Shown here in pieces: positions 3,957-43,389 of a stretch of 64,000 nt of DNA; position 1 is the stretch's first letter; the number at the start of each line of letters is the position of its first letter. Origin of the DNA: Anaerolineae bacterium (GTDB lineage: Bacteria; Chloroflexota; Anaerolineae; Aggregatilineales; Phototrophicaceae); assembly GCA_022843745.1 (NCBI GenBank), contig JALHNB010000007.1:124001-188000 (forward strand), read 5' to 3'. A program made the position numbers and the translations under genes. The notes beneath the pieces were generated by a model. The model made no database searches, was not told the origin of the DNA, and worked only from the letters and a program-made list of their open reading frames with translations.

Positions 3957-4006
3957 GATGTATCCACTGCTGCCATTGAACTAATGAAAAAATAAATGTA
4001 TCCACT
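3939..4006 (+). repeat. Short direct duplication joining the cysA end and the next gene's start
   Basis: The last 18 bases of cysA including its TAA (3939-3956) recur exactly at 3967-3984. The first 11 bases of the next gene (ATGTATCCACT, 3996-4006) also occur at 3958-3968. The second copy reads as a nine-codon frame, MYPLLPLN plus stop, whose head matches the next gene and whose tail matches CysA. It looks like a slipped or recombined 28-bp duplication and is unlikely to be a gene. Confidence 0.8.
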
Positions 4007-4919
4007 CTTATCGCTATCACAAATCACGCTCAACTCCCAACTGGCGCGCCGTCTACCGCGCCGTTTGGCTTATTATCATCTGGCGCTGCCCATCGCCTAT
4101 GACGAAGATTTTATTGCCGTCGCGATGGCACACCCGGATAACCAGGCCGTTGTTAAAGTGCTGGAAGCGGTACTCGGCGCAGCAGTCACGCCTGTTCGCA
4201 GCGATGCCGAAGAAATCAAGCATTCGCTGGATTATGTCTGGCAGGAAGACGGCGAGGCAGGCACTTCAACGCTTATGTTCTGGACGGATAAGCCAGAGTG
4301 TGAAGCCAATATACGCGCTTATGCCGCCGAAATCGCCGTCGCGCTCTCGTTAAATTGTGAAGAATCCCAACCCGAATCAATGGCCGCGCTGCTTCAGCGT
4401 TCCCAGGAAGTGCGCCCTTCGTTAATCGTCTGCTGTGTGGCTGATTCGCAGCTTCTAGCACAGCTTGTCAATCGCTCAACGGCTTCAATTTTGTTGGTGC
4501 GGGAAGGGCAGGCGCTGCCGCGAAATATTTTGCACGTTCTGCGCGGTCATACCCCGGATCGCCGCGTACTGGATTGGGTGATTCCGATTGCCCATCATGA
4601 CAACGTGCCTGTAACGCTTTTGGCGGCGGCGACTCCATCTTATGGGCAGGGCAGCCCACTCCTGAGCGATTTTGCGAATCTGCTTTCCCCAAATCATTCC
4701 GCGCATCTCACCGAATATGGGCAGGTGTTAGCCAGCGTAAACGTGACCGGAAGGGTCAAAATCCGCCAGGGGATGCTGGAAGATGTGATCGTTAGCGAGC
4801 TTTCTGAGCGCAGCTATGATATGGTCGCGATTGCGGCGGAAGCCTATGGCGATTTCGTTTACCGCGTTTTGCAGCGCTTGAATGGCAACTCCTGCGCGTT
4901 CCTCGTCATAAAACCCTAA
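3996..4919 (+). CDS. T2SSE_N-like domain fused to two universal-stress-like domains
   Basis: This is a 307-residue cytoplasmic protein without signal peptide. Residues about 15-82 match the N-terminal domain of GspE/PilB-type ATPases (RRLPRRLAYYHLALPI, then VAMAHPDNQAVVKVL and a terminal EEIKHSLDYVW). No ATPase domain follows. Residues about 85-165 look like one Usp-type alpha/beta unit ending VNRSTASILLVREG. Residues about 170-307 look like a second (NVPVTLLAAAT, SYDMVAIAAEAYGDFVYRVL, NSCAFLVIKP). Usp proteins sense nucleotides or stress; related N-terminal domains in MshE bind cyclic-di-GMP. The start is 39 bases after cysA, so it may be co-transcribed. No ATP-binding G-x2-G-x9-G signature is evident. 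Domain calls are by eye. Confidence 0.62.
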   Translation: MYPLLSLSQITLNSQLARRLPRRLAYYHLALPIAYDEDFIAVAMAHPDNQAVVKVLEAVLGAAVTPVRSDAEEIKHSLDYVWQEDGEAGTSTLMFWTDKPECEANIRAYAAEIAVALSLNCEESQPESMAALLQRSQEVRPSLIVCCVADSQLLAQLVNRSTASILLVREGQALPRNILHVLRGHTPDRRVLDWVIPIAHHDNVPVTLLAAATPSYGQGSPLLSDFANLLSPNHSAHLTEYGQVLASVNVTGRVKIRQGMLEDVIVSELSERSYDMVAIAAEAYGDFVYRVLQRLNGNSCAFLVIKP

Positions 4920-28239: not shown

Positions 28240-29253
28240 ATGAAGATTTTGATTATTGGCGGAACGGGTCTGATTAGCACGTCGATCACCGGCGAACTGG
28301 TGTCACGCAGACATGATATGACTCATTATAATCGTGGCAAAAGCGCGGTTCGCTATCGAGGTACCGTCAATAACATCATCGGAGATCGCAACGATTTCGC
28401 AAATTTTGAGCGACAGATGACTGAGGCAGGGACGTTCGATTGCGTCATTGACATGATCGGCTTCACGCCACCACAGGCCGAGAGCGCTGTGCGCATATTT
28501 AAAGGACGCACCAGTCAGTATATTTTTTGCAGCACCGTCGATGTGTATCAGAAACCTGCTAATCGTTACCCGATTCTCGAAAATGAACCGCGCGTTCTGC
28601 GGGATGATTACGGCGGCAACAAAACCCGCTGTGAGAATACCTTTTTCGAAGCTCACCAGCGTGGCGACCTGAATGTGACGATTATCCGTCCGGCGATGAC
28701 CTACGGCGAAGGCGGCTCAGTCGTTGAGCTAACAGGTTGGGGTACGAAATATATTGACCGGATGCGCAAGAGCAAGCCGATTATCGTGCATGGTGACGGC
28801 AGTTCGCTGTGGGGCGCGTGTCACATTGACGATGCCGCGCGTGCCTTTGCCGGGGCGGTTGGAAACCCGGCAACGTCCGGCAAGGCCTATCACGTCACCG
28901 GCGAAGAATGGCTGACCTGGGATCAATATTATCATGGGTTGGCGCAGGCTGCTGGCGCTCCTGAACCGCGATTTGTCCATATTCCGACGGATGTTCTGGC
29001 GCGGATCGATTCTAACAAGATGAATGTGGTCGTGACAAATTTCCAGGGCAACAATATTTTTGACAACAGCGCTGCACATACTGACCTGGGCTTCAAATAT
29101 CGAATTCCCTGGGTTGAAGGCGCACGCCGCACGATTGCATGGTTAGATGCACACAACAAGATTCAAAACAGCGACGATGACCTGTTTGATGACCGCGTGA
29201 TCGCCGCCTGGGAACGACTTGGCACGGCTATGCAGCAGGAATTGAGCAGTTAG
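28240..29253 (+). CDS. NAD-dependent epimerase/dehydratase family protein
   Basis: This is a 337-residue extended-SDR fold. The nucleotide loop is GGTGLISTS (8-16), a variant of GGTGFIG. The Y-x3-K pair appears as DYGGNKTRCE, and HGDGSSLWGACHIDDAARAF is the usual substrate-side segment. It follows the halogenase-like gene by 12 bases with AAAGGAA, so it is probably the last gene of that run. Its stop overlaps the convergent PQQ-type dehydrogenase by 4 bases. Sugar-nucleotide epimerase or reductase activity is possible; the substrate is not evident. Confidence 0.83.
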   Translation: MKILIIGGTGLISTSITGELVSRRHDMTHYNRGKSAVRYRGTVNNIIGDRNDFANFERQMTEAGTFDCVIDMIGFTPPQAESAVRIFKGRTSQYIFCSTVDVYQKPANRYPILENEPRVLRDDYGGNKTRCENTFFEAHQRGDLNVTIIRPAMTYGEGGSVVELTGWGTKYIDRMRKSKPIIVHGDGSSLWGACHIDDAARAFAGAVGNPATSGKAYHVTGEEWLTWDQYYHGLAQAAGAPEPRFVHIPTDVLARIDSNKMNVVVTNFQGNNIFDNSAAHTDLGFKYRIPWVEGARRTIAWLDAHNKIQNSDDDLFDDRVIAAWERLGTAMQQELSS

Positions 29254-30401
29254 GGTGCTGCCTCCAGGCGGTGAACGATGCCCTTATAATCCAGGGAATA
29301 AAGCTCACCGTTCACATCTTCGCCAAATGACGTGATGACCTGATCGGAATCAATGAATAAACTGGTTAGCCACACGCCGGATTCATGACGAATCATCGAC
29401 CACATTTTCCCCGTGCAGTAATCCCCAAAAAAGTAGACTCCCTGCAATTCTGGAAGCGCCGCGCCGCGATAGACATAGCCGCCTGTAACCGCACAACCTT
29501 CCGCATGGGGATATTCAAAAATGGGCATTGTGACTTCGCCGCTGGTCGGCTGATCTTTGAATGGGTGCGTACCCTGGTATACACTCCAACCATAATTTTC
29601 ACCGCCCTTACTATTCGCTGGTTGAAAATCGACTTCTTCCCAATCCCACTGACCGACATCGCCGATATACAGGTCGCCAGTGGCACGATCAAAGCTCATA
29701 CGCCAGGGGTTACGAACGCCAACGGCCCAGATTTCCGGTAAATAATCGGCGTTGCCAATAAATGGATTTGTGTCTGGTACGGTGTACGTCTCGGCGTTCA
29801 CGTCGATTCGCAGGATTTTGCTTAAAAACGTGTCCGTTTTCTGACCATTATTGGACGGATCTTCCAGCGAACCGCCATCGCCAAACCCGATATACAGATA
29901 GCCATCTGGCCCAAAGCCGATATAGCCGCCGTTGTGATCGGCAAAGGGTTGATCGACGGTCAGAAGCGTCGTGGCGCTGTCGAGATCAGCCAGATTGGGG
30001 TCATCCGCTGCCACATGGTAGCGGGCGATCACACTGTCGCCGTTAATATCTGTATAGCTGACGAAAAGGAGGCCATTTTCGGCGTAATCCGGGTGAAAAG
30101 CAAAGGTGAGTAAACCGCGCTCCGTATAACCACCCTCGAAAACGTCGTCGGAGAGCAAATTTGAGATGTCTAAAAATGGATCCGGCAGGACTTCGCCATT
30201 TTCGATTATCCAGATTAACCCGCCTTGTTCGCCAACAAATAGGCGCTCATCACCAGCATGAGTCAGAAAAATCGGGCTGTCGAAATCGCTGGCAACTTCG
30301 ACCCATTGGTAACGATTAGGATCGGGTATGTCCTGCGATTGCACGGTGATGCCGAGCAGCAAAAAGCTGAATGTGACCAATACAAGAAACCATCGAGGCA
30401 T
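29250..30401 (-). CDS. Secreted PQQ-dependent aldose/soluble glucose dehydrogenase-like protein
   Basis: This 383-residue exported six-bladed propeller has a signal peptide (FLVLVTFSFLLLGITVQSQ). Family marks are FAFHPDYAENGLLFVSYTD, QPFADHNGGYIGFGPDGYL followed by YIGFGDGGS, VGVRNPWRMSFDRATGDLYI, GDVGQWDWEEVDF and GGENYGWSVYQG. These match the soluble glucose dehydrogenase/HHIP-like group, which uses PQQ with calcium to oxidise sugars. No PQQ synthesis genes are in the window. It is transcribed alone, divergently from the FGE-like lipoprotein and convergent with the epimerase. Confidence 0.85.
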   Translation of the reverse strand: MPRWFLVLVTFSFLLLGITVQSQDIPDPNRYQWVEVASDFDSPIFLTHAGDERLFVGEQGGLIWIIENGEVLPDPFLDISNLLSDDVFEGGYTERGLLTFAFHPDYAENGLLFVSYTDINGDSVIARYHVAADDPNLADLDSATTLLTVDQPFADHNGGYIGFGPDGYLYIGFGDGGSLEDPSNNGQKTDTFLSKILRIDVNAETYTVPDTNPFIGNADYLPEIWAVGVRNPWRMSFDRATGDLYIGDVGQWDWEEVDFQPANSKGGENYGWSVYQGTHPFKDQPTSGEVTMPIFEYPHAEGCAVTGGYVYRGAALPELQGVYFFGDYCTGKMWSMIRHESGVWLTSLFIDSDQVITSFGEDVNGELYSLDYKGIVHRLEAAP

Positions 30402-30499
30402 GATATGATTTCGTTTCTACAAAGGTGTTCGATTATGCACAATCGCGGTATTATAGCGATTTGCGCAATTTTGAACAATTTGAGAAAGCTCAAATAGCC

Positions 30500-31264
30500 G
30501 TGACGAAAATCCTGTTTTTTTTATTCCTTATGGCATTAGGTGCCTGTGCCACCCAAAGTGCGACCACGCCGACATCGATTCCCACGCCGACTCAGGTCGC
30601 GAAAAATGCCGATTGGGTGCCTGTTGAAAGCGAATTTGATGCCGTGATGATGGTGCAGGTGCCAGCGGGCTGCTTTATGATGGGCAACGAAGAGGGCAGG
30701 CGAGATGAGAAGCCTGTGACACAAATCTGCTTTGAAGCGCCCTATTGGATTGACCGCTACGAAGTTACGAACAAGCAGTATGGCGAAGCGGGTAATTTCC
30801 CTGGCGATAATCGACCTCGCGAAAATCTGACCTGGAACGAGGCGCGTGATTTTTGCGTCAAACGGGGCGCACGACTGCCTACCGAGGCGGAGTGGGAGTA
30901 TGCGGCACGTGGGCCGGATAGCCTGATGTACCCCTGGGGCAATGAACTCGTTGACGACAATCTGGTGTTTGATCGCAACTCTAATAATGAAACGGCTGAC
31001 GTAGGTAGCAAGCCAGCGGGCATTTCCTGGGTCGGCGCGTATGATATGTCCGGCAATGTGTGGGAATGGGTGAACAGCCTTTACGAGCGTTACCCTTATG
31101 ATGCCGCCGATGGTCGCGAAAACGCAGACAGCACCGAGCAGCGGGTCTATCGCGGTGGGGTAGGCAGCTACATTGATTTTGCCGCCAGCAGCGCCATTCG
31201 TTTCCGGGCTGATCCTGAAAAACGTGATTGGTTCATTGGCTTTCGCTGCGCACGCTCGGATTAA
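30500..31264 (+). CDS. Lipoprotein with formylglycine-generating enzyme (SUMF1/FGE) domain
   Basis: The GTG at 30500 gives a 254-residue lipoprotein with a short signal and lipobox MALGAC. An earlier ATG (30425) adds 25 non-signal residues and is disfavoured, though the ribosome site (GAGAAAG) is weak. A Thr/Pro linker follows, then the FGE-sulfatase fold from about residue 50: MVQVPAGCFMMGNEEGR, YWIDRYEVTNKQY, RLPTEAEWEYAARG, YPWGNE, DMSGNVWEWVNSLY, and FIGFRCARSD. True FGEs use a copper-binding Cys pair; I do not see it clearly, so a non-catalytic or otherwise modified role is possible. No sulfatase gene is nearby. It runs 15 bases before the SGNH gene. Confidence 0.82.
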   Translation: MTKILFFLFLMALGACATQSATTPTSIPTPTQVAKNADWVPVESEFDAVMMVQVPAGCFMMGNEEGRRDEKPVTQICFEAPYWIDRYEVTNKQYGEAGNFPGDNRPRENLTWNEARDFCVKRGARLPTEAEWEYAARGPDSLMYPWGNELVDDNLVFDRNSNNETADVGSKPAGISWVGAYDMSGNVWEWVNSLYERYPYDAADGRENADSTEQRVYRGGVGSYIDFAASSAIRFRADPEKRDWFIGFRCARSD

Positions 31265-31279
31265 GGTAAGGATTTTTCG

Positions 31280-32602
31280 ATGAATAGTCGCGTTTTAGGT
31301 GGATTTTGGGTGCTGCTGGTTGTAGGCGCGACCATCGCAGGTTTGCAAGCAATCTCGCCCGAAAACCCCTTGATTATCCCGGCACTGATCGTGATGTGGG
31401 TTATCACCATCATTAGCTTGCTGCCATTCCCGTTGAAGAAAGCGGTTGGTGCGCCTATACGTTGGCTGCGCGAACATCCGATTCTCTATTGGTTTCTGAT
31501 TCTATTCTACATCTGCCTGTCTTTAGGCTACTGGGTCAGCCAATATCAGCCGACGAACGGACGGGCGCTGAAACCTGTCGAATTTTTCTACCTGCTGGCA
31601 ATTTCTTGGTTTCTGATTTATCTGCTGGCCTATGATGCCGATGCGCCGCAGCTTCGAGCGATGGGCGCAAAATTGGGCCAAAGCCGCTTGTCGGGTGTGC
31701 TAGTGATGCTAACGACGATAGTATTCATTTTTATCGCCGCTGAAACCTGGATGCGGATTTATTACATCACCACCGACGGTTACGGCTTCACGGCGATGAA
31801 TTACTGGTGGTATCAGAATTTCGGCTTGGGACACAATAATTCGCTGGGCTATCGCGATTATGAGCCGAAACCGGATGCGCCTGGGCTGATTCGGGTTGCT
31901 GTAGTCGGGGATTCGTTCGCGATGGGACATGGCGTTAATAATATTGACGACACGTTTCCGCAAATTATGGAGCGCGAGCTTGGCGATGGCTATGATGTCA
32001 ATCTGGTGGCACAGTCGGGTTGGGATAGCGATGTCGAGCGAGATCGACTGGATAGTTATCCGCTGCGCCCCAATATCGTCGTGCTGTCGTATTACCTCAA
32101 CGATATTGACTATCTGCTGCAAACGCCGGAACTTAGCCCGGATGCAATTTTTGATTTTCCTCAAGACCCGACTTTGTATTGGTTCGTGTTGAATTTTTTC
32201 GTGCCAAATTACGTATACTACAATGTTGCGCAATTTACATCGCCGCTGAAGCGAGAAAATTTCACCAACCGGCTGATTGATGCGCATATGGACGACAATC
32301 TCTGGAATCAGCAGGTGGACAAGCTGAACCAATTTGTCGATTGGACTGTCGATCATGACACGCGGCTGATTATCCTCTTGTGGCCGCAGATCGCCGCCGT
32401 TGCGGATTCTGCTCCGGCAGTGCAGCGCGTCAAAGATTTTTTCGAGTCGCGTGATGTTCAGGTCGTGAATATGAGCGATGTGCTGCTCGACAAAAACCCA
32501 TACGATATGATCGTAAACCGCTTCGATTCACATCCTGGCGTTCCTGCACATCATCTCGCCGCCGAGCAATTGTACGCGGCGATTATAGAAGAAAGTCCTT
32601 AG
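31280..32602 (+). CDS. Membrane protein with C-terminal SGNH hydrolase domain
   Basis: In this 440-residue protein, about five hydrophobic spans cover residues 5-165 (FWVLLVVGATIAGLQAI, ALIVMWVITIISLLP, YWFLILFYICLSLGYWV, FFYLLAISWFLIYLLAY, VLVMLTTIVFIFIAAE). A GDSL/SGNH domain follows: block I VAVVGDSFAMGHGV, block III-like SYYLNDIDYL, and block V RFDSHPGVPAHHLAAEQ with the Asp-x-His pair. Such proteins add or remove acyl groups on envelope glycans. It neighbours the glycan cluster, but the strand reverses right after it. Its TAG stop lies in a TTAGC array. Confidence 0.8.
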   Translation: MNSRVLGGFWVLLVVGATIAGLQAISPENPLIIPALIVMWVITIISLLPFPLKKAVGAPIRWLREHPILYWFLILFYICLSLGYWVSQYQPTNGRALKPVEFFYLLAISWFLIYLLAYDADAPQLRAMGAKLGQSRLSGVLVMLTTIVFIFIAAETWMRIYYITTDGYGFTAMNYWWYQNFGLGHNNSLGYRDYEPKPDAPGLIRVAVVGDSFAMGHGVNNIDDTFPQIMERELGDGYDVNLVAQSGWDSDVERDRLDSYPLRPNIVVLSYYLNDIDYLLQTPELSPDAIFDFPQDPTLYWFVLNFFVPNYVYYNVAQFTSPLKRENFTNRLIDAHMDDNLWNQQVDKLNQFVDWTVDHDTRLIILLWPQIAAVADSAPAVQRVKDFFESRDVQVVNMSDVLLDKNPYDMIVNRFDSHPGVPAHHLAAEQLYAAIIEESP

Positions 32603-32733: not shown

Positions 32734-32765
32734 GTGGCTAACAACTAACTGCTAACTGCTAATCG
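32734..32765. repeat. GCTAAC-rich array providing a stop codon
   Basis: TGGCTAACAACTAACTGC and TAACTGCTAATCGC repeat a 7-bp CTAACTG-like word. On the minus strand it encodes the last residues (LAVSS) and TAG stop of the first GT-C-like gene. Confidence 0.6.
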
Positions 32766-34940
32766 CTCAAACCGAATCCAATCGACCATGAGTGCGAGTT
32801 TGCGCAGATCGCCGCCCTGGTTAACCTCGTTTGGCACGACCCAGCCATCATAATCGAGCGTCAAATTGAGATGTTTGCCGTCGCCGACAATCTCTGCTGG
32901 GAGCGTGAAGGTGAATGTTTGCAGCGAGTCTGTCGCGACAGATACAGCCGAATCCAGAGCCGTATCGTTGACCAAGACTCGCAGAGTGCGTGATTCGTGG
33001 AATGCCTGTGCGGAGAGTGAAATTTCATATTCGCCCGGTGGCAGGTCGAAATAAGTCTGTGTTTGTAGATATTCGCCGTTCCAGCGCACGGTGATTCCGG
33101 CGATATTTTCCGGCCCGTGCCAGCCCCAGCCGATAAACTTTTCGTCACCTATGCTGCCAATGTCGATCTGATATCTGCCGGGTTCGATCTCCGGCGGGAT
33201 ATTCGCTGGACAACCATCGGGATGCCATGCCGTGCGGTAGGCTACAGCATCACCTTCTACGTAAACCGGACAGAGCAAATCCGGCAGCGTATTGAAATAG
33301 CCGATAATTTCCTGATTCGTCGGGCCGACGCGCCCGATATAATCCTGATGAATCACAATATAGCCAATCGGCCACTCAAAAACGCGCTCCCGAAGCTGGT
33401 TTTCGACGACCTCCGGCTCTAAATAACGGCGCTGACCGAGCCACGCCAGCATCGGATCGTCGTAGAGCCAATACCAGAAATTCGCGAGTGGCGCACGGGC
33501 AATCGAGCCATTCAACATGCGCTTGCCGTGAGTTATGCCGTAAAACTGCGTCTCCATCGGGCGAAACTCACCGACCCACGCTTCACCAGAGCCGCCCGCG
33601 ACAGGCACTTCGAGGACGGCGTAATCATCGTAAGGTTCGCCGCGTTCTTCATCCATTTTGGCGTAAAAATCGTAGGGCTGCGTCACGCGCTGAATCGGCA
33701 TCGGCGCGAACAACTGCGCTTCGACCACAACCGCCAAAATCACAATGGTGCTGATCGCGATTTTCAAGCCGCGTGAGCGCGTCAACAGCGGCCCCCATGT
33801 TCGCCCGACGAAAATCATCGCTGGCAAAATCAGCAGGCCGCCGAAACGTGACGGTACCCGAAACATGCCGTTGAGCAGGTTGAACATCGCGGTAAAGGGC
33901 ATCCAGATTTCACTGCCTGCGATCAAAATACTGCCGCCTGGGGAAAGAATCAGCGGCACAATCACCAACGCCAGCCAGAACCAGCGGCGTGAATCGCGGA
34001 CGCGGCGGCGCAATATTGTCACGCTGGCGATTAATGTGAGTAGGGTGACGGGCAGGACGAACCAGCCGAGTGTCACTTTGCGATCATAGGTGGCGAAACG
34101 CGAAAAATAGCCTTCGGGAAATGGGATACCTTGCGCATCCTGAAGCGGCTGTGGCGAGAGGCCAGAACGATCAAATGTCAGAATATACGACAGTGGGCCG
34201 ACGAACCATAAAAGCACGACCATAAGCAGGATCGCCAGAATGCCAAATGCGACCAGACGTGCGCGATACGACCATGAGTGTGCTTCGAACAGAGTAAGCA
34301 GGGCATACGGCACGAGCAAAAACACACAAAACAGCAAAAATGTGTAATCGGTCATCATCATGCCGTAGAGCGCGAGTCCTTGAATGACCGCCCACATCAG
34401 GGCCTTTTTCGGCTGACCGATATGTCGCGCGATTTGCCCCCAGATCAAAATCTGGACAGGCAGCCAGAACATGCTGAGGTAGTTGACATTGGTCAGCATG
34501 GCGCTGAGAAGCATGGCGGGGGTGAGCATATAAGCGGCTGCCCCGGCCAGCGATAAGCCGTCAGGCACACTCTCGCGCCGCAAGAGCAGCCATGCCGTAT
34601 AGCCCGTCAGAGCCATCGCGGTGACAAAAATGACGTTCATGGCGACCAACGTGCCGGCTATTGGTTCGATCAGCGCCCACAGCGGATACCAGAATGGAGT
34701 GAGCGTGTGATAGGCAAGGTTCGTCGTCGCGGGAAATAGGACAAAATTGGTTTCGTAGAGATTGAGGCCGGGAGTTGTTAAAGCATGGCGAATCCACCAG
34801 AAATTCCAGTTAAAGTGATAATAATCGGTTGTCCAGTAGCCGCCTGTATGAGTCGCGGTGTGGAGCAGCGGCCAGTATAGGGCGAGGATGCTTAAAAACA
34901 GGAAAAAGCCGAGGGCGACAGGATGGCGTTTGAATTGCAT
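32745..34940 (-). CDS. GT-C-like polytopic membrane protein with C-terminal beta-sandwich domain (paralogue 1)
   Basis: This is a 731-residue protein. The first span is followed by an extracytoplasmic loop with TTDYYHFNWNFWWIRHALTT and ETNFVLFP. Around ten further spans run to about residue 420. Acidic residues in the first loop are typical of GT-C glycosyltransferases that use polyprenyl-phosphate sugars. A soluble region (430-590, with AWLGQRRYLEPEVVENQLRE and WHPDGCPANIPPE) leads to a 130-residue beta-sandwich (WGWHGPENIAGITVRWNGEY, FDLPPGEYEISLSAQAFHES, LALMVDWIRFERL), possibly carbohydrate-binding. It is last in a three-paralogue minus-strand operon, 2 bases after the stop of paralogue 2. 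Its C-terminus falls in a GCTAAC array. Donor and acceptor unknown. Confidence 0.7.
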   Translation of the reverse strand: MQFKRHPVALGFFLFLSILALYWPLLHTATHTGGYWTTDYYHFNWNFWWIRHALTTPGLNLYETNFVLFPATTNLAYHTLTPFWYPLWALIEPIAGTLVAMNVIFVTAMALTGYTAWLLLRRESVPDGLSLAGAAAYMLTPAMLLSAMLTNVNYLSMFWLPVQILIWGQIARHIGQPKKALMWAVIQGLALYGMMMTDYTFLLFCVFLLVPYALLTLFEAHSWSYRARLVAFGILAILLMVVLLWFVGPLSYILTFDRSGLSPQPLQDAQGIPFPEGYFSRFATYDRKVTLGWFVLPVTLLTLIASVTILRRRVRDSRRWFWLALVIVPLILSPGGSILIAGSEIWMPFTAMFNLLNGMFRVPSRFGGLLILPAMIFVGRTWGPLLTRSRGLKIAISTIVILAVVVEAQLFAPMPIQRVTQPYDFYAKMDEERGEPYDDYAVLEVPVAGGSGEAWVGEFRPMETQFYGITHGKRMLNGSIARAPLANFWYWLYDDPMLAWLGQRRYLEPEVVENQLRERVFEWPIGYIVIHQDYIGRVGPTNQEIIGYFNTLPDLLCPVYVEGDAVAYRTAWHPDGCPANIPPEIEPGRYQIDIGSIGDEKFIGWGWHGPENIAGITVRWNGEYLQTQTYFDLPPGEYEISLSAQAFHESRTLRVLVNDTALDSAVSVATDSLQTFTFTLPAEIVGDGKHLNLTLDYDGWVVPNEVNQGGDLRKLALMVDWIRFERLAVSS

Positions 34941-34942
34941 CG

Positions 34943-37171
34943 CTAATCACCCAGCCGTCTGAACTGAATCCAATCGACGGCGATGGCGAGTTTGCGCTCG
35001 TCTTCGCTCTGGCCGACCTCTTTAGGGATGATGATGTCGTCGTAATTCAGTGTGAGCCTGAGATTTTTGCCATCGCCGACGAGTTCAGATGGAAGCGGAT
35101 AAGTGTACGTTTGGAGCGTGTCGGTTGTGACAGATTGTGTCTCGCCGATTGGCGTGTCGTTCAGCAGCAGACTCAATTCGCGCGTTTCCCAGAAAGCCTG
35201 CGCTGAGAGCGAGACTTCGTATTCACCCGGTGGCAGATCGACGTAAACCTGTGTCTGTGGGTATTCGCCCGTCCAGCGCAGAGTCAGGCCAGAAACGTCT
35301 TCCTGCCAATGCCAGCCCCAGCCGATAAATTTTTCGTCGCCGGATGTGCCGATGTCAATTCTGTAGGTATGAGGTTCCGTTTCAGGTGGGATTCGTGCCG
35401 GACAGCCGTCGGGATGCCATGTTGTGCGGTAAACAAGGGCATCGCGCTCGATCCACATTGGACACACAAGGTCGGGCAATGAATTCAGGTAGCCGATAAT
35501 TTCTTGCAGCGTAGGGCCATTTTTCCAAATGTAATCGCTGTGAATCACGATGTAACCAATCGGCCATTCGGCGATGCGTTCGCGCAACTGTTCCTCGACG
35601 ACATCAGGCTCGATAAAGCGGCGCTGACCCAACCACGCCAACATGGGATCGTCATAGCGCATGCCCCAAAAATGGGCGAAATTCACGCGCGAGATATGCC
35701 CATTGACCATGCGCTTGTGATGGGTGATGCCGTAATACATCATAGCCGCGTATTTTTGCTCACCGACAATGCCTTCGCCACTGCTTGCGCCTGTTGGTAC
35801 TTCGACCACGACATAATCATACGGCTCTTTCCCCATCTCCTCGTAGAAATGGTAAGGCTGTGGCTTTGGCTGAATAACTACCGATTCTAACACCCGTGAG
35901 TCGGCGAGAACGATGAACATAAACGCGGCTGGAAAGGCGATTTTGAGCCGGGAATGTCGTTTCAGAATAGGTGTGAGCGTCATCATGCCGAACAGTACGC
36001 CGGGGATAACGAAAACGGGCATAAAGCGCTCAGGATAGCGGAACTGACCGCCGAGAAGCTGGTGAAGAAAAATATAGGGCAGCGTGATTTGGGTTTCGCC
36101 GATGTTGATGAACGCGCCCGGTGATAGGATCAGCGGCAGCGGGACAAGCGTCAGCCAGAACCAGCGCATGGGCAGCGAGGATTTTTCGCGTTTGCGCAGC
36201 CACCCATTGATAATCAGCACGATGACCATGAACGGGATGTAGACTGTGCCTAACGGAACGCCTTCTTCAACGGGTGTATTGCGGATGAAATCCCAGGGAA
36301 ACTGGATGCGAACCGCGCGGTCAACGGGTGTAGCCGCCAGCCCGGAGCGATCAAATTTTAAGAGGTCAGGCAGCGGGCCGATAAACCAGAGCAAAACCAA
36401 CCCTATAGCAAGAGCAAGCACTCCGAGAGCCGCCAACCGCGCACGTCCGGCCCAGGTTGGCGTTCGCCAGAGGGTAAGCAGGCCGTAGGGGACGATCAAA
36501 AATGCTAAAAACAGCGGGTATTGAATATCAGTCAGCACCATCGCCCAGAACGCAACGCCAAACAAAATCGTCCAGAACAGGGGTCGTTGTAGCAATGTTT
36601 TGCCGGGTTTTTGATTGCTTCGCGCGATCTCACCCCAGGTCAGCAGCATGAGGGGCAACCAGAACCATCCCATAATGTTGACAGTTGTCCAGTAGGTGGC
36701 GCTGAACATGAGGCGTGAAAGTTCGAGCATCGTGCCGCCCACCAGCGCCAACCCATAGGAAACGCCTTCGCGCCGCAGCAGCATAAAAAATGTGCAGCCT
36801 GTCAGCGTGAATGCCACGACAAAAACCGCTGTCATGCCCGCGATTGTCCCGAAAAGCGGCTCGACCAGCGCCCAGACCGGATACCAGAACACCGTCAGCG
36901 TGTGATAACTCAGGTTCGAGGTGAAGGGAGCCATGATGTAGTTGGTTTCATAGACATTGAGGCCGGGGGTTGTCAGGGCATGGCGTACCCACCAGTAATT
37001 CCAGTGAAACTGAAAATAGTCGGTAACTTGCGATCCTGTAATCGACGTATCCATATTAAAAATCGGCAGATAGAGCGCTAAAAAGGCGATGAGCGCGAAA
37101 AAGATCACGATCACCAATGCACGCCCGATGAGCGTTGAAGGTTTTTGGCTGACAGTTTGAATCATGCGCAT
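34943..37171 (-). CDS. GT-C-like polytopic membrane protein with C-terminal beta-sandwich domain (paralogue 2)
   Basis: This is a 742-residue protein with the same architecture as its neighbours. The conserved first loop is VTDYFQFHWNYWWVRHALTT, with ETNYIMAP after it. There is a multi-span core, then YDDPMLAWLGQRRFIEPDVV, WHPDGCPARIPPE, and a terminal beta-sandwich with WGWHWQEDVSGLTLRWTGEY and YVDLPPGEYEVSLSAQAF. The ATG at 37171 overlaps the upstream stop as TAATG and is preferred to the 81-codon upstream extension, which is out-of-character sequence read inside paralogue 3. Identity in the loop and in the C-terminal domain with the other two is high, showing tandem duplication. Confidence 0.7.
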   Translation of the reverse strand: MRMIQTVSQKPSTLIGRALVIVIFFALIAFLALYLPIFNMDTSITGSQVTDYFQFHWNYWWVRHALTTPGLNVYETNYIMAPFTSNLSYHTLTVFWYPVWALVEPLFGTIAGMTAVFVVAFTLTGCTFFMLLRREGVSYGLALVGGTMLELSRLMFSATYWTTVNIMGWFWLPLMLLTWGEIARSNQKPGKTLLQRPLFWTILFGVAFWAMVLTDIQYPLFLAFLIVPYGLLTLWRTPTWAGRARLAALGVLALAIGLVLLWFIGPLPDLLKFDRSGLAATPVDRAVRIQFPWDFIRNTPVEEGVPLGTVYIPFMVIVLIINGWLRKREKSSLPMRWFWLTLVPLPLILSPGAFINIGETQITLPYIFLHQLLGGQFRYPERFMPVFVIPGVLFGMMTLTPILKRHSRLKIAFPAAFMFIVLADSRVLESVVIQPKPQPYHFYEEMGKEPYDYVVVEVPTGASSGEGIVGEQKYAAMMYYGITHHKRMVNGHISRVNFAHFWGMRYDDPMLAWLGQRRFIEPDVVEEQLRERIAEWPIGYIVIHSDYIWKNGPTLQEIIGYLNSLPDLVCPMWIERDALVYRTTWHPDGCPARIPPETEPHTYRIDIGTSGDEKFIGWGWHWQEDVSGLTLRWTGEYPQTQVYVDLPPGEYEVSLSAQAFWETRELSLLLNDTPIGETQSVTTDTLQTYTYPLPSELVGDGKNLRLTLNYDDIIIPKEVGQSEDERKLAIAVDWIQFRRLGD

Positions 37172-39348
37172 TATCTCGGTGTGAAACGTATCCAATCGAC
37201 GGCGATTGCTAGTTTGCGCGGGTCGGCGCTCTGGCCTATTTCGTTGGGGACAATCACGTTGTCGTAATCCAGCGTTACGGTGATATGCTGACCGTCGCCA
37301 ACAGCCGCTTCTGGAATATTGAAGGTGTAAGTTTGCAGAGAATCGACAGAAACCGTCGCTGTTTCGTCCAGCGGCGTATCGTTGACCAGAATGCTCAGTT
37401 CGCGCGATTCCCAAAAAGCTTGTGCTGAAATTTCAAGTTGATATTCGCCGGGGGGTAGATCGACGTAAATTTTCGTTTGCGGATATTCGCCTGTCCAGCG
37501 CAAATTCAGACCAGAAACATCTTCCGGCCAATGCCAGCCCCAGCCGATATAGCGCACATCGTCTGCCGCGCCGATGTCAATCTGATATGCGCCGGATTCG
37601 GTCTGCGGTGGGATGCGCGGCGGGCAGCCATCGGGATGCCAGGTCGTGCGGAAGACGACGGCATCATGCTCGACAAACATGGGACAGAGCAAGTCCGGCA
37701 GGGCATTAAAATAGCCGATAATTTCCTGATTGGTCGAACCGTTGCGCCCAATCTGATCCTGATGGATGACGATGTATCCGACAGGCCATTCCGAAATCAT
37801 CTGGCGCAGCTTAGGCTCGACCAAATCCGGCTCAAGCAAACGGCGCTGACCGAGCCAACTCAGCAGCGGGTCATCGGTGCGCAGCGGCCAGAAATTTTCC
37901 GTCGGTGTGCGCGAGATGAAGCCGTTGACCATACGCTTCTGATGAGTCATGCCGTAGAACTGATAGGTGATGACGTGGGGATCGCCAATCAAAACCTCGC
38001 CTGTCCCTACGCCCGTCGGCACTTCGACCACCACATAATCGTCGTAGGGTTCGCCGCGCTCCTCGCCCATCGTTTCGTAAAAATTATACGGATAGAGGAT
38101 CGGGTCAATCGGCGCGGTTTCGAACATGCGAACATCCAGCCCTAACAGCAAAAAGGCCGCAATGAGGACACCATAACGCTGTGCGCGTGGCAAAATCGGT
38201 GTCCAGGTTTTGGCGACGAAAATCAAGGCAGCAACGATAAAAATGGGCGCGAGTCGCCAGGGCATCCGAAACATGCCGTTGGTGAGCGTATGGAGCAGGC
38301 GAAAGGGCATCGGGATGCTCATGCCAAACAGCGTAATATTCGGCCCCATCGACAGGATCAGCGGTGGCAGCATCAGCACGAACCACAGCCAGCGATCCGA
38401 CGGCATGCGGCGGCGCAGGCGCGAGAGTGCGACGATCAGCGAAATAATCGTGACGATGGTGACGAATCCGCCGAGCGTCGGTGTGTTCCAGTTCCACCAA
38501 ACGTCATACATCGACAGATAGCCGCCGGGGAAGGGTACGCCGGGGCGATCCTCAACGCCGCCGGGTGCGAGTGTACCCGTGAAGCTACGCATATATGGCA
38601 GCGGCCCAGCGAACCATAATAACGCGAAGGCAATCGCTAAGGTTAACAGTCCGGCGAAAATGATCGGGAGGCGCTTTTTCGCTCGCCAGAAGGTATAGAG
38701 GGCATACGGAGCAAGTAAAAACGCCACGAAAATCGGAAATTGCAGATCGGTTAAGCCCAACCCCCACAGCGCGAAGCCCTGCGCCACTGACCAGAAAACG
38801 GCCAGTCGGATTTTGCCCGCTTCGACAGACGAGACGATCTGTTTCCATAGAAGCAAATGCGCCGGAAGCCAGAACCAATCGCCGAGATTGATGTGTGTGT
38901 TGTAGTAAAAATAACGGGAGACAGGCGAAATTTGCAGCGCCAGCCCGCCAATAAGCGCGATTCCCGGTGATGCACCTTCGCTGCGGAGGAAGACGAACAG
39001 CAGGTAGCCGTTGAGGAAGCACATCAGGAAAATAATCACGTTCATCGCCGTGAACGTACCTGCCAGCGGCTCGACCAGCGCCCAAACCGGATACCAGAAT
39101 GCCGTCAACGCATGATAGCCCAGGTTATTCATGTGCGGGAACATCACGTAATTGGTTTCAAAAACATTCAGGCCGGGTGTGGTCAGCGCATGGCGAATCC
39201 ACCACATATTCCAGTGATAATCGAAATAGTCATATCCGGTGACATGTGTGCCATTGGTAAACCACAGAATATAGAGGATGATAAAGGCCATCAGCGCGTA
39301 GAAAATGATGGCTGCGGATTGCAGACGAAGTTGTTTGGGCATTATCAA
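37171..39348 (-). CDS. GT-C-like polytopic membrane protein with C-terminal beta-sandwich domain (paralogue 3, first in operon)
   Basis: This is a 725-residue protein. The first loop is GYDYFDYHWNMWWIRHALTT with ETNYVMFP. The membrane core includes LALWGLGLTDLQFPIFVAFL-like helices. The soluble part has LLSWLGQRRLLEPDLVEPKL and WHPDGCPPRIPPQTE. The C-terminal beta-sandwich has WGWHWPEDVSGLNLRWTGEY and YVDLPPGEYQLEISAQAF. All three paralogues keep the VAIxDWIxF-like ending (LAIAVDWIRFTPR here). It lies upstream of and divergent from a small secreted Cys protein. It may be a glycosyltransferase of the YfhO/GT-C style or another lipid-sugar enzyme; no single conserved catalytic motif beyond the first-loop acidic/aromatic cluster can be named. 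Confidence 0.68.
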   Translation of the reverse strand: MIMPKQLRLQSAAIIFYALMAFIILYILWFTNGTHVTGYDYFDYHWNMWWIRHALTTPGLNVFETNYVMFPHMNNLGYHALTAFWYPVWALVEPLAGTFTAMNVIIFLMCFLNGYLLFVFLRSEGASPGIALIGGLALQISPVSRYFYYNTHINLGDWFWLPAHLLLWKQIVSSVEAGKIRLAVFWSVAQGFALWGLGLTDLQFPIFVAFLLAPYALYTFWRAKKRLPIIFAGLLTLAIAFALLWFAGPLPYMRSFTGTLAPGGVEDRPGVPFPGGYLSMYDVWWNWNTPTLGGFVTIVTIISLIVALSRLRRRMPSDRWLWFVLMLPPLILSMGPNITLFGMSIPMPFRLLHTLTNGMFRMPWRLAPIFIVAALIFVAKTWTPILPRAQRYGVLIAAFLLLGLDVRMFETAPIDPILYPYNFYETMGEERGEPYDDYVVVEVPTGVGTGEVLIGDPHVITYQFYGMTHQKRMVNGFISRTPTENFWPLRTDDPLLSWLGQRRLLEPDLVEPKLRQMISEWPVGYIVIHQDQIGRNGSTNQEIIGYFNALPDLLCPMFVEHDAVVFRTTWHPDGCPPRIPPQTESGAYQIDIGAADDVRYIGWGWHWPEDVSGLNLRWTGEYPQTKIYVDLPPGEYQLEISAQAFWESRELSILVNDTPLDETATVSVDSLQTYTFNIPEAAVGDGQHITVTLDYDNVIVPNEIGQSADPRKLAIAVDWIRFTPR

Positions 39349-39443
39349 CTCAGATAACGTGAGAAAACTACGGTAGCCAAATTACGTTTTCCCCCATAAA
39401 ATTGGGCGCTGTATTTGTACCGCTTGGAGAGGAAAAAGACAAA

Positions 39444-39962
39444 ATGCTGTATCGTAAATTCATCGCTACTCTGATCGTCGCTATTATGGGGGCAACCCTG
39501 CTCATTCTGGCGCTGCCGACTGGTGTCGCCAATGCCTGCCTGCCCTGCAACTGCAAAACTCACCGCACTGTGAACTGCTTTGGCCGTTATGGTGTGTATA
39601 TCCTGCAAAACGGTGATAGCTGCGCGATTCGCGTTCTGGATATTGATGACGATGGTCGTTCTTCGCGCGCCTTTGACCTGTCGGCAAAAGAACTCGCCGA
39701 ACTGCCGGAAACGCCCGAAGAAAACATGCTGGTTGACGAATATTATGAGATCGCGTTCTACAAGCTGACGACTGGCGAATATCAGGTCAATTCCGGCCCT
39801 GATGCCGAGGGTAAAGTCTTTGTCCTCAATTTTACGGGCTGCCCAGCCACGAATGTCTATGAAAGCACATTTATTACAGGTGGGCCAGTGACTCAATTGA
39901 CGAATGATGCCCAACCAGCGCCCGAAGCCCAACCAGCGGCTGAAGAAGCGGCGGCTCAATAG
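39444..39962 (+). CDS. Small secreted Cys-containing protein, function unknown
   Basis: This 172-residue protein starts at the ATG at 39444, with GGAGAGGAAA upstream. A signal peptide covers about residues 1-30 (LIVAIMGATLLILALPTGVA). The mature N-terminus is Cys-rich (NACLPCNCKTHRTVNCFG), followed by a beta-rich stretch (VYILQNGDSCAIRVLDIDDD, YYEIAFYKLTTGEYQVN) and one further Cys (FTGCPATNVYES). It ends in a low-complexity Ala/Gln/Pro/Glu tail (AQPAPEAQPAAEEAAAQ). I do not recognise the family. The convergent epimerase overlaps its last codons by 7 bases. A minus-strand frame across the same interval has no signal or motif and is rejected. Confidence 0.65.
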   Translation: MLYRKFIATLIVAIMGATLLILALPTGVANACLPCNCKTHRTVNCFGRYGVYILQNGDSCAIRVLDIDDDGRSSRAFDLSAKELAELPETPEENMLVDEYYEIAFYKLTTGEYQVNSGPDAEGKVFVLNFTGCPATNVYESTFITGGPVTQLTNDAQPAPEAQPAAEEAAAQ

Positions 39963-40915
39963 CGGTTTAACCCACGCGCCCATTCAATCGTCTCGCGCAT
40001 CCCGTGCTGCCATGCGACCTGCGGCGACCAGCCTAAAAGTGCTTTTGCACGGCTGATGTCGGCAGCGGAGATACGCATGTCGCCGGGCTGCGCGGGATGA
40101 TAGTTTACCGGGTACGTTTCGCGCGTGTAACCGAATGATTCTAATACAGCATCGCAGAGCAGATTGACGCTCAGCGAATGGCCTGTCCCCAGATTGACGA
40201 CTTGCCCATAGCTGGCAGGTTGGTCAATCGCATCTACCCAGGCACGTGCGATGTCCGAGATATGCACAAAATCGCGCGATTGCTCGCCATCGGAATGAAT
40301 GTTGATTGGTTCGCCGCGCAGGACATTGCCGATAAAAATCGCGAATACGCCCTGATAGGCATTCGTCAGGCTTTGGCGGATGCCGTACACGTTGAACATC
40401 CGCATGGACGTGACGTGAAAATCGAACCCCAAATCTTTGCGCAGCGCTGTCGCATGGACGTAGCGTTCTGCGGCATATTTGGTGATCGCGTAATATGAAA
40501 TCGGGGCAGGGGGCGTATCTTCCGGCGTTGGGACAACCGGATTATTGCCGTAAATCGTCATTGAACTGGCGAAAATCAGGCGCGGGATTCGATATTTGAT
40601 ACACTGCTGCAAGATGTTGATCGTGCCAAGCGTATTGACGTTCAAATCAGCAGCGGGGTCTTGAAACGAGAGCCGGATGGATGCTTGCCCAGCGATATGC
40701 AGCACGGCATCAATTCCGCGCTCAAAAATGGGCGTTAAATCGGCTTCATTTCGCACATCACCCATGATAAATTCGGCGTTTGGATTGAGGTTATCCCGTG
40801 TGCCTGTTGTCAGGTTATCTAAAACGATGGGTATATCACCTCGCGCAAGCAGTAAATCGACAATATGGCTGCCGATGAAGCCAGCTCCGCCTGTAACCAG
40901 AATCCGCTTTTTCAA
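39956..40915 (-). CDS. NAD-dependent sugar-nucleotide epimerase (UDP-glucose 4-epimerase-like)
   Basis: This 319-residue extended SDR has GGAGFIGSHIVDLLLARGD at the N-terminus, SSMTIYGNNP for the catalytic Ser/Thr, and YYAITKYAAE with the Tyr-Lys pair. Further marks are MRMFNVYGIRQ, FVHISDIARAWV and the domain-closing VNLGTGHSLSV. It probably interconverts UDP-glucose/galactose-type donors for the glycan cluster; a dehydratase or reductase is less likely. It starts with TTG, overlapping the TGA of the GT2 gene as TTGA, so the two are translationally coupled. A strong ATG alternative is absent. Confidence 0.87.
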   Translation of the reverse strand: MKKRILVTGGAGFIGSHIVDLLLARGDIPIVLDNLTTGTRDNLNPNAEFIMGDVRNEADLTPIFERGIDAVLHIAGQASIRLSFQDPAADLNVNTLGTINILQQCIKYRIPRLIFASSMTIYGNNPVVPTPEDTPPAPISYYAITKYAAERYVHATALRKDLGFDFHVTSMRMFNVYGIRQSLTNAYQGVFAIFIGNVLRGEPINIHSDGEQSRDFVHISDIARAWVDAIDQPASYGQVVNLGTGHSLSVNLLCDAVLESFGYTRETYPVNYHPAQPGDMRISAADISRAKALLGWSPQVAWQHGMRETIEWARGLNRY

Positions 40916-41709
40916 TTTGTGTCGCTCGGAATATCAGGTTCGCTCACAGGCTTCCAGGGTTTAAAAACAGTGCTGTCGGTGCGGTAAGTATCATGTTTGA
41001 CCAGCAGCCACTCGAACCAGACGATCAGCAGGGTATAGAGATAACGGCTGCCTTGTTCTTTCAGCTTGAGCGCAGAGACACCAATATCGCGGTTGCGCCA
41101 TGTGATCGGGATGGTCTTATAGGAATAGCCACGCACCATCGCCTTCAGCGGAATCTCGATTGTCAGATTGAAGTGCGGGGATACCAGCGGACGACAGCCT
41201 TCGATTACGTTGGCGCGATAACCCTTAAAAGCGTTGGTTGTGTCGTTGTAGGGTATATTGAACATCAAACGGATGACGAAATTCGCCAGTCGGTTAATAC
41301 CCAGCTTGAATTTGGGGTAGTCGTAGACTTTTGAGCCGCGCATGAAGCGTGAACCAAAGGCGCAGTCGGCCTCGTCGCGCAGGATATAGTAGTATTTTTC
41401 CACGTCCTGGGGCGAATCCGACGCATCCGCCATGTAGATCATCACCGCGTCACCCGTGAAATGATTCAGGCCAAATGTCACCGCCCGGCCAAAGCCGTTG
41501 CGTCCGGTATTGCGCACCACGCGGATACGCTCATCCTTGACGTGTTCTGCCCAGACCAACTCGTAAGTACGGTCTGTACTGCCGTCATCGACCACCAGGA
41601 TTTCGAGGTTGGTGATGCCCACGCTATCCAGATAATCGCGTAAGGCGACAACCGTTTTTTCGACATTGCCTTCTTCGTTACGCGCCGGGATGACCAGTGA
41701 AAGTTTCAT
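40912..41709 (-). CDS. Family 2 glycosyltransferase, dolichyl/polyprenyl-phosphate mannosyltransferase-like
   Basis: This is a 265-residue GT-A fold enzyme without C-terminal membrane spans. N-terminal LSLVIPARNEEGNVEKTVVA and ILVVDDGSTDRTYELV hold the nucleotide site. The usual DxD region reads MIYMADASDSPQDVEKYY, an altered form of DADLQDPPE. FGSRFMRGSKVYDYP and RGYSYKTIPITWRNRDIGVS follow in DPM1-like order. Such enzymes transfer a sugar from a nucleotide to polyprenyl phosphate on the cytoplasmic face, which would supply lipid-linked sugar to the nearby GT-C-like proteins. It is coupled to the downstream epimerase by a stop/start overlap. Confidence 0.85.
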   Translation of the reverse strand: MKLSLVIPARNEEGNVEKTVVALRDYLDSVGITNLEILVVDDGSTDRTYELVWAEHVKDERIRVVRNTGRNGFGRAVTFGLNHFTGDAVMIYMADASDSPQDVEKYYYILRDEADCAFGSRFMRGSKVYDYPKFKLGINRLANFVIRLMFNIPYNDTTNAFKGYRANVIEGCRPLVSPHFNLTIEIPLKAMVRGYSYKTIPITWRNRDIGVSALKLKEQGSRYLYTLLIVWFEWLLVKHDTYRTDSTVFKPWKPVSEPDIPSDTN

Positions 41710-41750: not shown

Positions 41751-42824
41751 CTATTTATAGACCGATTCGAGCAGTCGCTGCCGCCAGCTTGTGACGATTT
41801 CGTCAAAAATGTCGTCCAGCGTTTTGGTGATGCCCCATCCCGGCAGGCTGCGTTGGAGGTTCGATAAATCCGAGATATAGCAGATATGGTCGCCTACACG
41901 CGCCTCGTCCACGTAATGATAGCGCATCGGCTTGCCGGTAAGCTGGGATACACGGTCAAACGCTTCGAGAATCGAGATCGAGTTGTCGCGCCCGCCGCCG
42001 AGATTGAACACCGCGCCGGACTGCGGATTTTCGTAAAACATCTCGATGCAGCGTGCCACATCATAGGCATGAATATTATCGCGCACCTGCTTGCCTTTGT
42101 ATCCGTAGATAGTGTACTCGCGTTCCTCGACGTTGCAGCGGATAAGATAACTCAGAAAGCCGTGTAATTCCACACCGGAATGATTTGGCCCGGTGAGGCA
42201 GCCGCCGCGCAGACAGCAGGTACGCATCCCAAAATAGCGCCCATACTCCTGCACCATCACATCAGCGGCAGTCTTGGAAACACCAAACAGCGAGTGTTTG
42301 GATTGGTCGATGCTGAATGATTCGTCAATGCCATTGGCATAAGCAGGGTCGGCATAATCCCAGCGCGTGTCTTTTTCGACGAGGGAGATGCTGTTCGGCC
42401 TGTCGCCATAAACTTTGTTGGTGGACATCTGCACAAACACCGCTTGGGGGGCGTGTTGGCGTGTCGCTTCAAGGAGGTTGAGTGTGCCGCCCGCGTTCAC
42501 ATCAAAATCGTCAAATGGGCGTTTGGCAGCAAGATCATGGCTGGGCTGTGCCGCCGCGTGAACGATCAAATCCGGCTCGACCTGCTGGACGAAGTTCATC
42601 ACGCCGCTGCGATCCCGAATATCGAGTTCGTGATGCGTGAAATTTCTGCAGAGCGTTTCCAGACGATGCTGATTCCAGCGGGTATCGCCTTTTTCGCCAA
42701 AAAAATCGCGGCGCATATTGTTATCCGCGCCGAAAACCTGCCAGCCCAAGTGATTGAAGTAGGCCACGACTTCCGAGCCGATTAACCCATTTGAACCTGT
42801 GACGATGACTTTTTTCACAATCAT
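41751..42824 (-). CDS. CDP-paratose 2-epimerase-like NAD-dependent epimerase
   Basis: This 357-residue extended SDR starts at [20 protein letters not shown]; the 63 codons open upstream overlap the next gene and are not used. Diagnostic stretches are [57 protein letters not shown], and [20 protein letters not shown]. They match the CDP-tyvelose/paratose epimerase group and a related bacterial subgroup. At the catalytic position the usual Tyr-x3-Lys reads Phe-Gly-Val-Ser-Lys (LFGVSK). It probably makes or modifies a deoxysugar for the surface glycan. It lies 41 bases upstream of the GT2 gene on the same strand. Confidence 0.83.
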
Positions 42825-42885
42825 CCCATCTCTAAAATTTAACAAGGCATTATGATAGCGCAAAAGTTTGAAAAAGTGATGGGTT

Positions 42886-43389
42886 TCACAGACCTTGATT
42901 CTGGAGAATGGCCTCGATTTGCTGTTTAATGCTGTTCTCGCCATTTCCATCGTTGTCGATAATGAGATGGTCAATACGCGGTGGTTCAAAAATTGTGGAC
43001 ATTTTTCGCGCATAATCCATATCGAGCATCTGGTGGCTGCGATGGGCTAATCGTGTTTCGCGAACGTTGGTATCGGCTTCGACAAGGATGAACTGTGCTT
43101 CGGGGAAATGTTCCCGCACCCGCAGGCGATATTTTTCCTTGATAAAGGTTTGGGCGACGACCAGCCGGGGGTGAATTGGCTTGAGTTGGTAGATACTTTG
43201 GATGATCTGGTCAAAAAACGCATCACGCATGGCATCGTTGATTGGCTTTTGCGTCGCAATCGCGATTTTCATCTCGTCGGTCAGATCATCATCGCCATCG
43301 TGAACAAAAAATCCGAATTCATTAAAAACTCTGGCAACATAGCTTTTGCCTGCACCCGGCAGACCGAAAGTGATGAACAACGTCGTCAT
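42886..43389 (-). CDS. P-loop AAA/kinase-like ATP-binding protein
   Basis: This is a 167-residue single-domain P-loop NTPase. Walker A is GLPGAGKSY (about 9-17); the LID and base-binding segments resemble small-molecule kinases ([30 protein letters not shown]). Gluconokinase/zeta-toxin-like or shikimate kinase-like activity is possible; the substrate cannot be named. It is upstream of the paratose-epimerase-like gene on the same strand with a 61-bp gap, and is divergent from the polyol dehydrogenase. It may phosphorylate a sugar for the glycan cluster (inference). Confidence 0.72.

Follow-up and report, generated by a model that had tools for sequence, protein, structure and literature searches.

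The window considered here, the whole 64,000-nucleotide stretch of a contig from an Anaerolineae bacterium, contains three tandem paralogous genes on the minus strand, here called A, B and C, and a set of neighbouring genes (Table 1). The paralogues are transcribed in the order C, B, A. The stop codon of C overlaps the start codon of B in the sequence TAATG, and B is separated from A by 2 bases. The coordinates thus bear out the open reading frames and junctions given by an earlier sequence-only reading, which listed paralogues of 731, 742 and 725 residues. Gene C may start from ATG at position 39342 (723 residues) or from TTG at 39348 (725 residues); the ATG is the likelier start. The proteins have pairwise identity of 50-52% over about 725 residues, that is, over the whole length. 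As that reading had noticed, all three carry an almost identical loop (WNFWWIRHALTTPGLN, WNYWWVRHALTTPGLN, WNMWWIRHALTTPGLN) and the marks WGWH and VDWI-F. When the genome was searched with the DNA pattern of the loop, only A, B, C and a fourth copy on a different contig (G000:C59) were found, with 0 matches to the reversed pattern used as a control, and the protein search of the same genome gave the identical set of four. Neither Pfam nor NCBIfam has a model that matches A, B or C. No relative of the family was observed in plasmid and viral collections, and hence there is no sign of mobile or viral origin.

Table 1. Paralogues A, B and C and the genes around them (positions in the window)
Feature	Position	Strand	Remarks
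GSDH (glucose/sorbosone dehydrogenase) domain protein	29250..30401	-	recurs in cluster
FGE-sulfatase-domain protein	30425..31264	+	recurs in cluster
Membrane protein with SGNH/GDSL-like domain	31280..32602	+	conserved in cluster
GT-C paralogue A	32745..34940	-	731 aa
GT-C paralogue B	34943..37171	-	742 aa, from ATG at 37171
GT-C paralogue C	37171..39342	-	723 aa; earliest transcribed of the three
Small secreted cysteine-containing protein	39444..39962	+	172 aa; divergent from C; conserved beside GT-C genes elsewhere
Epim1, GalE-like SDR epimerase	39956..40915	-	matches GalE-like epimerases
GT2, polyprenyl-phosphate-sugar synthase (DPMS) type	40912..41709	-	265 aa
Epim2, SDR nearest CDP-tyvelose 2-epimerase	41751..43013	-	E 1.7e-37

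The product of the GT2 gene resembles polyprenyl-phosphate-sugar synthases (E 2e-21 to PfDPMS, 5mlz, the dolichol-phosphate-mannose synthase of Pyrococcus). A first look at the same genome gave 33-35 GT2-like candidates. The true start of Epim2 is probably downstream of the listed ATG, as its domain begins at residue 68. No flippase was recognised beside the cluster; a genome search covering the GtrA type found a single such gene, on a different contig. The small cysteine-containing protein has no Pfam match. A minus-strand ORF of 212 residues at 39345-39983 was considered as an operon gene and rejected, since it lies antisense to the plus-strand gene of this small protein, which is conserved. 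Therefore the GT-C genes and the epimerase and GT2 genes do not form one continuous operon. The sequence-only reading placed the GT2 and two epimerases beside the paralogues; their adjacency holds and recurs in other genomes. On the other side of the paralogues, the GSDH, FGE-sulfatase and SGNH genes accompany the GT-C cluster in several genomes. The SGNH/GDSL-like protein is a possible glycan esterase or acyltransferase.

Members of this GT-C family are present in 56 of the 154 genomes of the order (E 1e-30), and a phylum-wide search of 301 genomes with E 1e-3 as threshold found relatives in 43, the source genome being counted. The named relatives are filed as Chloroflexota. Five distant relatives (L098-L102), when aligned, match the family over the whole length including the C-terminal module (hhalign 100%, E 1e-46). 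They share with it both this module and a D-x5-WN-WW loop, but are only 21% identical and are uncharacterised. One of them, encoded at 1871-4648 (minus strand) of L098, has an additional C-terminal ILEI domain beyond the sandwich and adjoins a gene that reads as an SDR polysaccharide-synthesis enzyme.

A profile of nine family members matched an alignment of four YfhO-type proteins from the same genome (hhalign 97.5%, E 5e-12, columns 52-388) and three PTPS_related proteins (93%), with 0.1-0.2% for the MFS and ABC permease controls. A single YfhO-type sequence gave just 46.8% (E 2e-4), and thus the YfhO link depends on the four-sequence alignment. In Pfam, the YfhO model (PF09586) scored one of the nine members at E 0.036, below its cut-off, and PTPS_related had very weak scores in single members of the alignment. 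A search of the genome with PF09586 gave matches elsewhere and none at A, B or C. Taken against the controls, the profile match identifies the family as a distant cousin of YfhO, short of the Pfam cut-off. The genome is rich in GT-C-like enzymes, and YfhO-type and PTPS_related proteins above the Pfam cut-offs are encoded on its contigs C4, C5, C33, C36, C45 and C56 (G000; L091-L097). The family has no PMT or PMT_2 match in Pfam up to E 1, and its profile matched neither a single PMT_2 protein nor a second GT-C-like single sequence. The PDB chains, searched with phmmer and with the profile, yielded no GT-C chain and chance rows such as Src and Cro. Thus the likeness to the GT53 enzymes AftD and Emb, which have no sequence match to A, B or C in Pfam or among PDB chains, is in fold only.

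Structural models were built for A (AlphaFold2 from nine relatives, mean pLDDT 76.7, pTM 0.66) and C (AlphaFold, mean pLDDT 71.8). The best match of the A model is AftD (Z 20.0 over 452 residues), followed by yeast STT3 (Z about 18), Pmt4 (16.9), DPY19 (16.4), PglB (15.2) and ArnT (12.9), where helical models may reach Z about 13 or 14 with no clear relative. The C model matches AftD (Z 23.0 over 465 residues), STT3 (22.9), Pmt4 (20.5) and ArnT (17.6). Almost every top match of both models is a GT-C enzyme; this, together with the Z values, makes a chance match unlikely. The GT-C membrane fold suggested by the sequence-only reading is thus predicted by the models of two paralogues, and the non-GT-C fold that was to refute it did not appear.

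In the model of A, a transmembrane region (residues 7-407, approximately) is followed by a mixed alpha/beta domain (about 415-580) and a C-terminal beta-sandwich (586-728). By our reading, the models of A and C contain about 11 membrane-length helices; these were preferred to a crude hydropathy scan with 8 segments per protein, which was set aside. Model confidence is low for the first external loop and for residues 448-492 (pLDDT block means about 40-62). The mixed domain contains Cys557 and Cys577, kept in all 60 sequences that have letters at these positions, and the two probably form an extracellular disulphide. Residues 586-728 of A match CBM35, CBM6 and CBM22 modules with Z about 12-13 and rmsd 2.5-3.7, and the C-terminal 140 or so residues of the C model match them with Z about 10, while no CBM model in Pfam matches A, B or C up to E 1. 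The C-terminal beta-sandwich noted from the sequence is found in the models, where it is predicted to be a CBM35/CBM6-like module of about 140 residues.

Conservation was assessed in 61 full-length relatives, including A, B and C of the window. Asp39, Trp45, Trp48 and Arg365 are unchanged in all 61, and position 198 is occupied by Asp in 59 and by Glu in two. A helix begins at residue 40 in the model of A, immediately after Asp39, and at residue 39 in the model of C, immediately after Asp38, in a loop modelled at pLDDT about 50. An acidic residue thus stands right before the helix of the first external loop, like Asp74 of MtPMT in the cited account (PMC12331936). The same account places another aspartate of MtPMT in the second loop and an Arg-x2-Tyr pair in the fifth, and states that activity requires Asp74, Asp176, Arg441 and Tyr444 (PMC12331936). 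By their conservation, Asp198 and Arg365 are likely to be the second acid and the phosphate-binding arginine. The DxD form of the GT-C motif was observed in none of the 61 sequences within a crude position window. The sequence-only reading could not tie the WN-WW-RHALTTPGLN loop to any characterised family. It is a local variant of the first external loop of GT-C enzymes, and distant relatives across the phylum share its looser form, D-x5-WN-WW.

An IQ-TREE phylogeny with 30 rows places A, B and C in separate groups with support of 100/99, 100/99 and 100/100, and each group includes members from other genera. The same grouping appears in a FastTree phylogeny with 61 rows (support 0.98, 1.00 and 0.93; groups of 8, 11 and 28 rows). 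Thus comparison with other genomes, proposed earlier as a check, keeps the paralogues apart across genera, and the triplet is old rather than a product of recent amplification: each paralogue belongs to an old lineage of its own, which has orthologues beyond the genus. Two or three of these lineages stand in tandem in other genomes too (L039, L166/L037, L168, L169, L170, L172-L175), and the order of the copies varies, being C-B-A in the window and C-A-B in L166/L037. An independent, lineage-specific triplet was found in L038, on the same contig as G364. Among sampled full-length copies, two or three lineages are present together in 12 of the 31 genomes with A/B/C-type genes. Specificity-determining columns were rejected as a guide to A, B and C, as in 12 sequences just 6 columns separate the groups cleanly, and the first external loop contains none of the 6.

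Orthologues of GT2 (E up to 1e-60) are present in 25 of the 154 genomes of the order, and 24 of these also carry the GT-C family (Fisher 1.1e-11, not corrected for kinship; since the genomes are related, Fisher values overstate the evidence). The pairing is not obligatory, as 32 genomes have the family and no GT2, and one (G411) has GT2 and no family member. Among the sampled genomes, GT2 accompanies A/B/C-type genes in 22 of 31, and is found in none of the 10 with only other members. Broken down by lineage, GT2 is present in 7 of 8 genomes for A, in 9 of 10 for B and in 20 of 28 for C, where clade C was assigned from full-length genes only; four genomes with fragments (G387, G390, G401, G404) were entered without C in the first Fisher table.

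The partners found near the GT-C genes recur in shuffled order in the 24 genomes examined. All seven (SGNH, small cysteine protein, Epim1, GT2, Epim2, FGE, GSDH) are present in G386 (L168), six of the seven in each of G398, G401, G384 and G387, and none in nine genomes; these counts are biased upwards, as seven of the 20 stretches in one batch were chosen for holding GT2. The small cysteine protein is encoded divergently upstream of 9 of the 26 C-type genes with sufficient flank (window excluded), and on the same strand beside one further C-type gene. Of 27 C-type genes, again excluding that of the window, 16 have no small protein in the searched flank, and one flank was too short. Somewhere in the examined stretches, the protein is present in 14 of the 24 genomes. 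The copy in the window has a Pro/Ala/Glu-rich tail, which is short or absent in two others compared. Clustered domains similar to the C-terminal part of the small protein occur inside larger frames in L112-L115 (G054, G049, G043, G059). In G036, a PMT_2 GT-C gene adjoins the C gene.

The cluster is best read as a system for glycosylation across the membrane, by which a surface glycan is built or decorated. With a probability of roughly 0.72, A, B and C are membrane GT-C glycosyltransferases, of a family that has no named model, which transfer the lipid-linked sugar made by GT2 to an acceptor glycan outside the membrane, with the same donor used for different positions or linkages. The two SDR enzymes would shape the nucleotide sugar used by GT2, which in turn would load polyprenyl phosphate at the inner face to give a polyprenyl-monophosphate sugar. 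A flippase encoded elsewhere would turn this lipid-sugar outwards. There A, B and C would move the sugar by means of Asp39 of the first external loop; Asp198 and Arg365 are the candidates for the second acid and the phosphate-binding arginine, and the CBM35/6-like domain would grip the acceptor glycan. The evidence for a lipid-phosphate sugar donor is indirect, from the adjacent and co-occurring DPMS-like GT2. As one donor synthase lies near three transferases, we suggest that one lipid-linked sugar probably serves several linkages, and that A, B and C most likely share this donor and differ in acceptor position or linkage.

An alternative, put forward in the sequence-only reading, is that the three paralogues transfer three different sugar units and so produce a defined repeat. 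The lineages are separate, well supported and kept in several genera, their joint presence in 12 of the 31 genomes suggests different jobs, and the genome has many more GT2-like candidates than the one considered here. However, the cluster itself contains a single polyprenyl-phosphate-sugar synthase, and the few columns that separate the groups lie outside the first external loop; a different sugar for each paralogue seems unlikely. A single donor, with linkages or acceptors that differ, is at least equally likely. It is similarly doubtful that A, B and C are PMT-type O-glycosyltransferases acting on secreted proteins, perhaps on the small cysteine protein. The best-matching structures include Pmt4 and Pmt1-2 (Z 16-20), and the secreted protein is divergent from a number of C-type genes, occurs in more than half of the examined genomes and bears in the window its Pro/Ala/Glu-rich tail. 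On the other hand, PMT and PMT_2 models do not match the family, the CBM-like domain points to a glycan acceptor, and the tail is not a regular property of the small proteins compared.

Transfer of a whole glycan from lipid to protein, as by the oligosaccharyltransferases STT3, AglB and PglB, is suggested by scores close to those of AftD (Z 18 against 20 in A, and a tie in C, 22.9 against 23.0). But the STT3 signature WWD is present in only 4 of the 61 sequences and is not conserved, and the GT2 of the cluster is similar to a monophosphate-sugar synthase, not to a part of an oligosaccharide assembly line, which makes this function improbable. Finally, these proteins could be catalytically dead scaffolds or sensors of the envelope: the weak relatives YfhO and PTPS_related are described in Pfam merely as membrane proteins, and no member has a known function. 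This is hardly to be expected of proteins with Asp39 and Arg365 invariant and Asp198 nearly so, and with a donor-synthase-like gene travelling with the family.

The preferred reading, of GT-C transferases fed by GT2, has parallels in known systems. GT-C enzymes with CBMs are already known, namely AftD, Emb and GT136 (PMC11127046, PMC7341804), and systems of a GT2, a flippase and a GT-C enzyme are established (PMC8035078). The GT136 enzyme ORF12 of Citrobacter youngae, as described in the cited text, similarly combines a GT-C core with a periplasmic CBM and uses a lipid-linked sugar donor with donor-synthesis genes adjoining, which in our case is predicted from the genes (PMC11127046). However, ORF12 transfers ribofuranose, and a different synthase makes its PRPP-derived donor; it is accompanied by a MATE flippase gene of its own and appears in that text as a single enzyme with no tandem set (PMC11127046). 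The mycobacterial GT53 enzymes AftD and EmbA/B/C (PDB 6w98 and others), which give the best structural match, also have a GT-C core with CBMs, and according to the cited text one glycan is the target of several paralogues that share one donor (PMC7341804), an arrangement that is only proposed here. In the same vein, several GT-C enzymes of mycobacterial arabinan are stated to use one lipid-linked arabinose (PMC11127046). The AftD and Emb proteins differ in being much longer and in using decaprenyl-phospho-arabinose, by that account (PMC7341804). Finally, the YfhO-CsbB-GtcA system has in common with the cluster the profile similarity of the transmembrane region, including an FR-P-R motif, and a GT2 partner that makes a lipid-linked sugar for an acceptor outside the membrane, as outlined in the cited text (PMC8035078) and predicted here. 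However, A, B and C are under the YfhO cut-off, their C-terminal module lies outside the similarity, and no flippase was recognised adjoining their cluster.

New here are the sequence family, for which no model exists, the tandem lineages within it and the cluster that these bacteria carry. Within a partial coverage of the literature, no paper was found that joins Chloroflexota, as phylum or class, with GT-C or polyprenyl glycosyltransferases, and the searched literature contains little on envelope glycan assembly in this phylum. Tentatively, the locus may represent the founding member of a new GT-C family, with three CBM-tailed transferases that share one lipid-linked sugar and attach it to a surface glycan of Chloroflexota or to the small cysteine protein; the sugar is possibly unusual, as the donor path includes a CDP-tyvelose-2-epimerase-like enzyme. 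The recurring cluster allows the donor synthase, the transferases and the possible modifiers to be studied together, and the recurrent tandem arrays form a natural set for the question of what sets the acceptor or linkage of GT-C paralogues apart.
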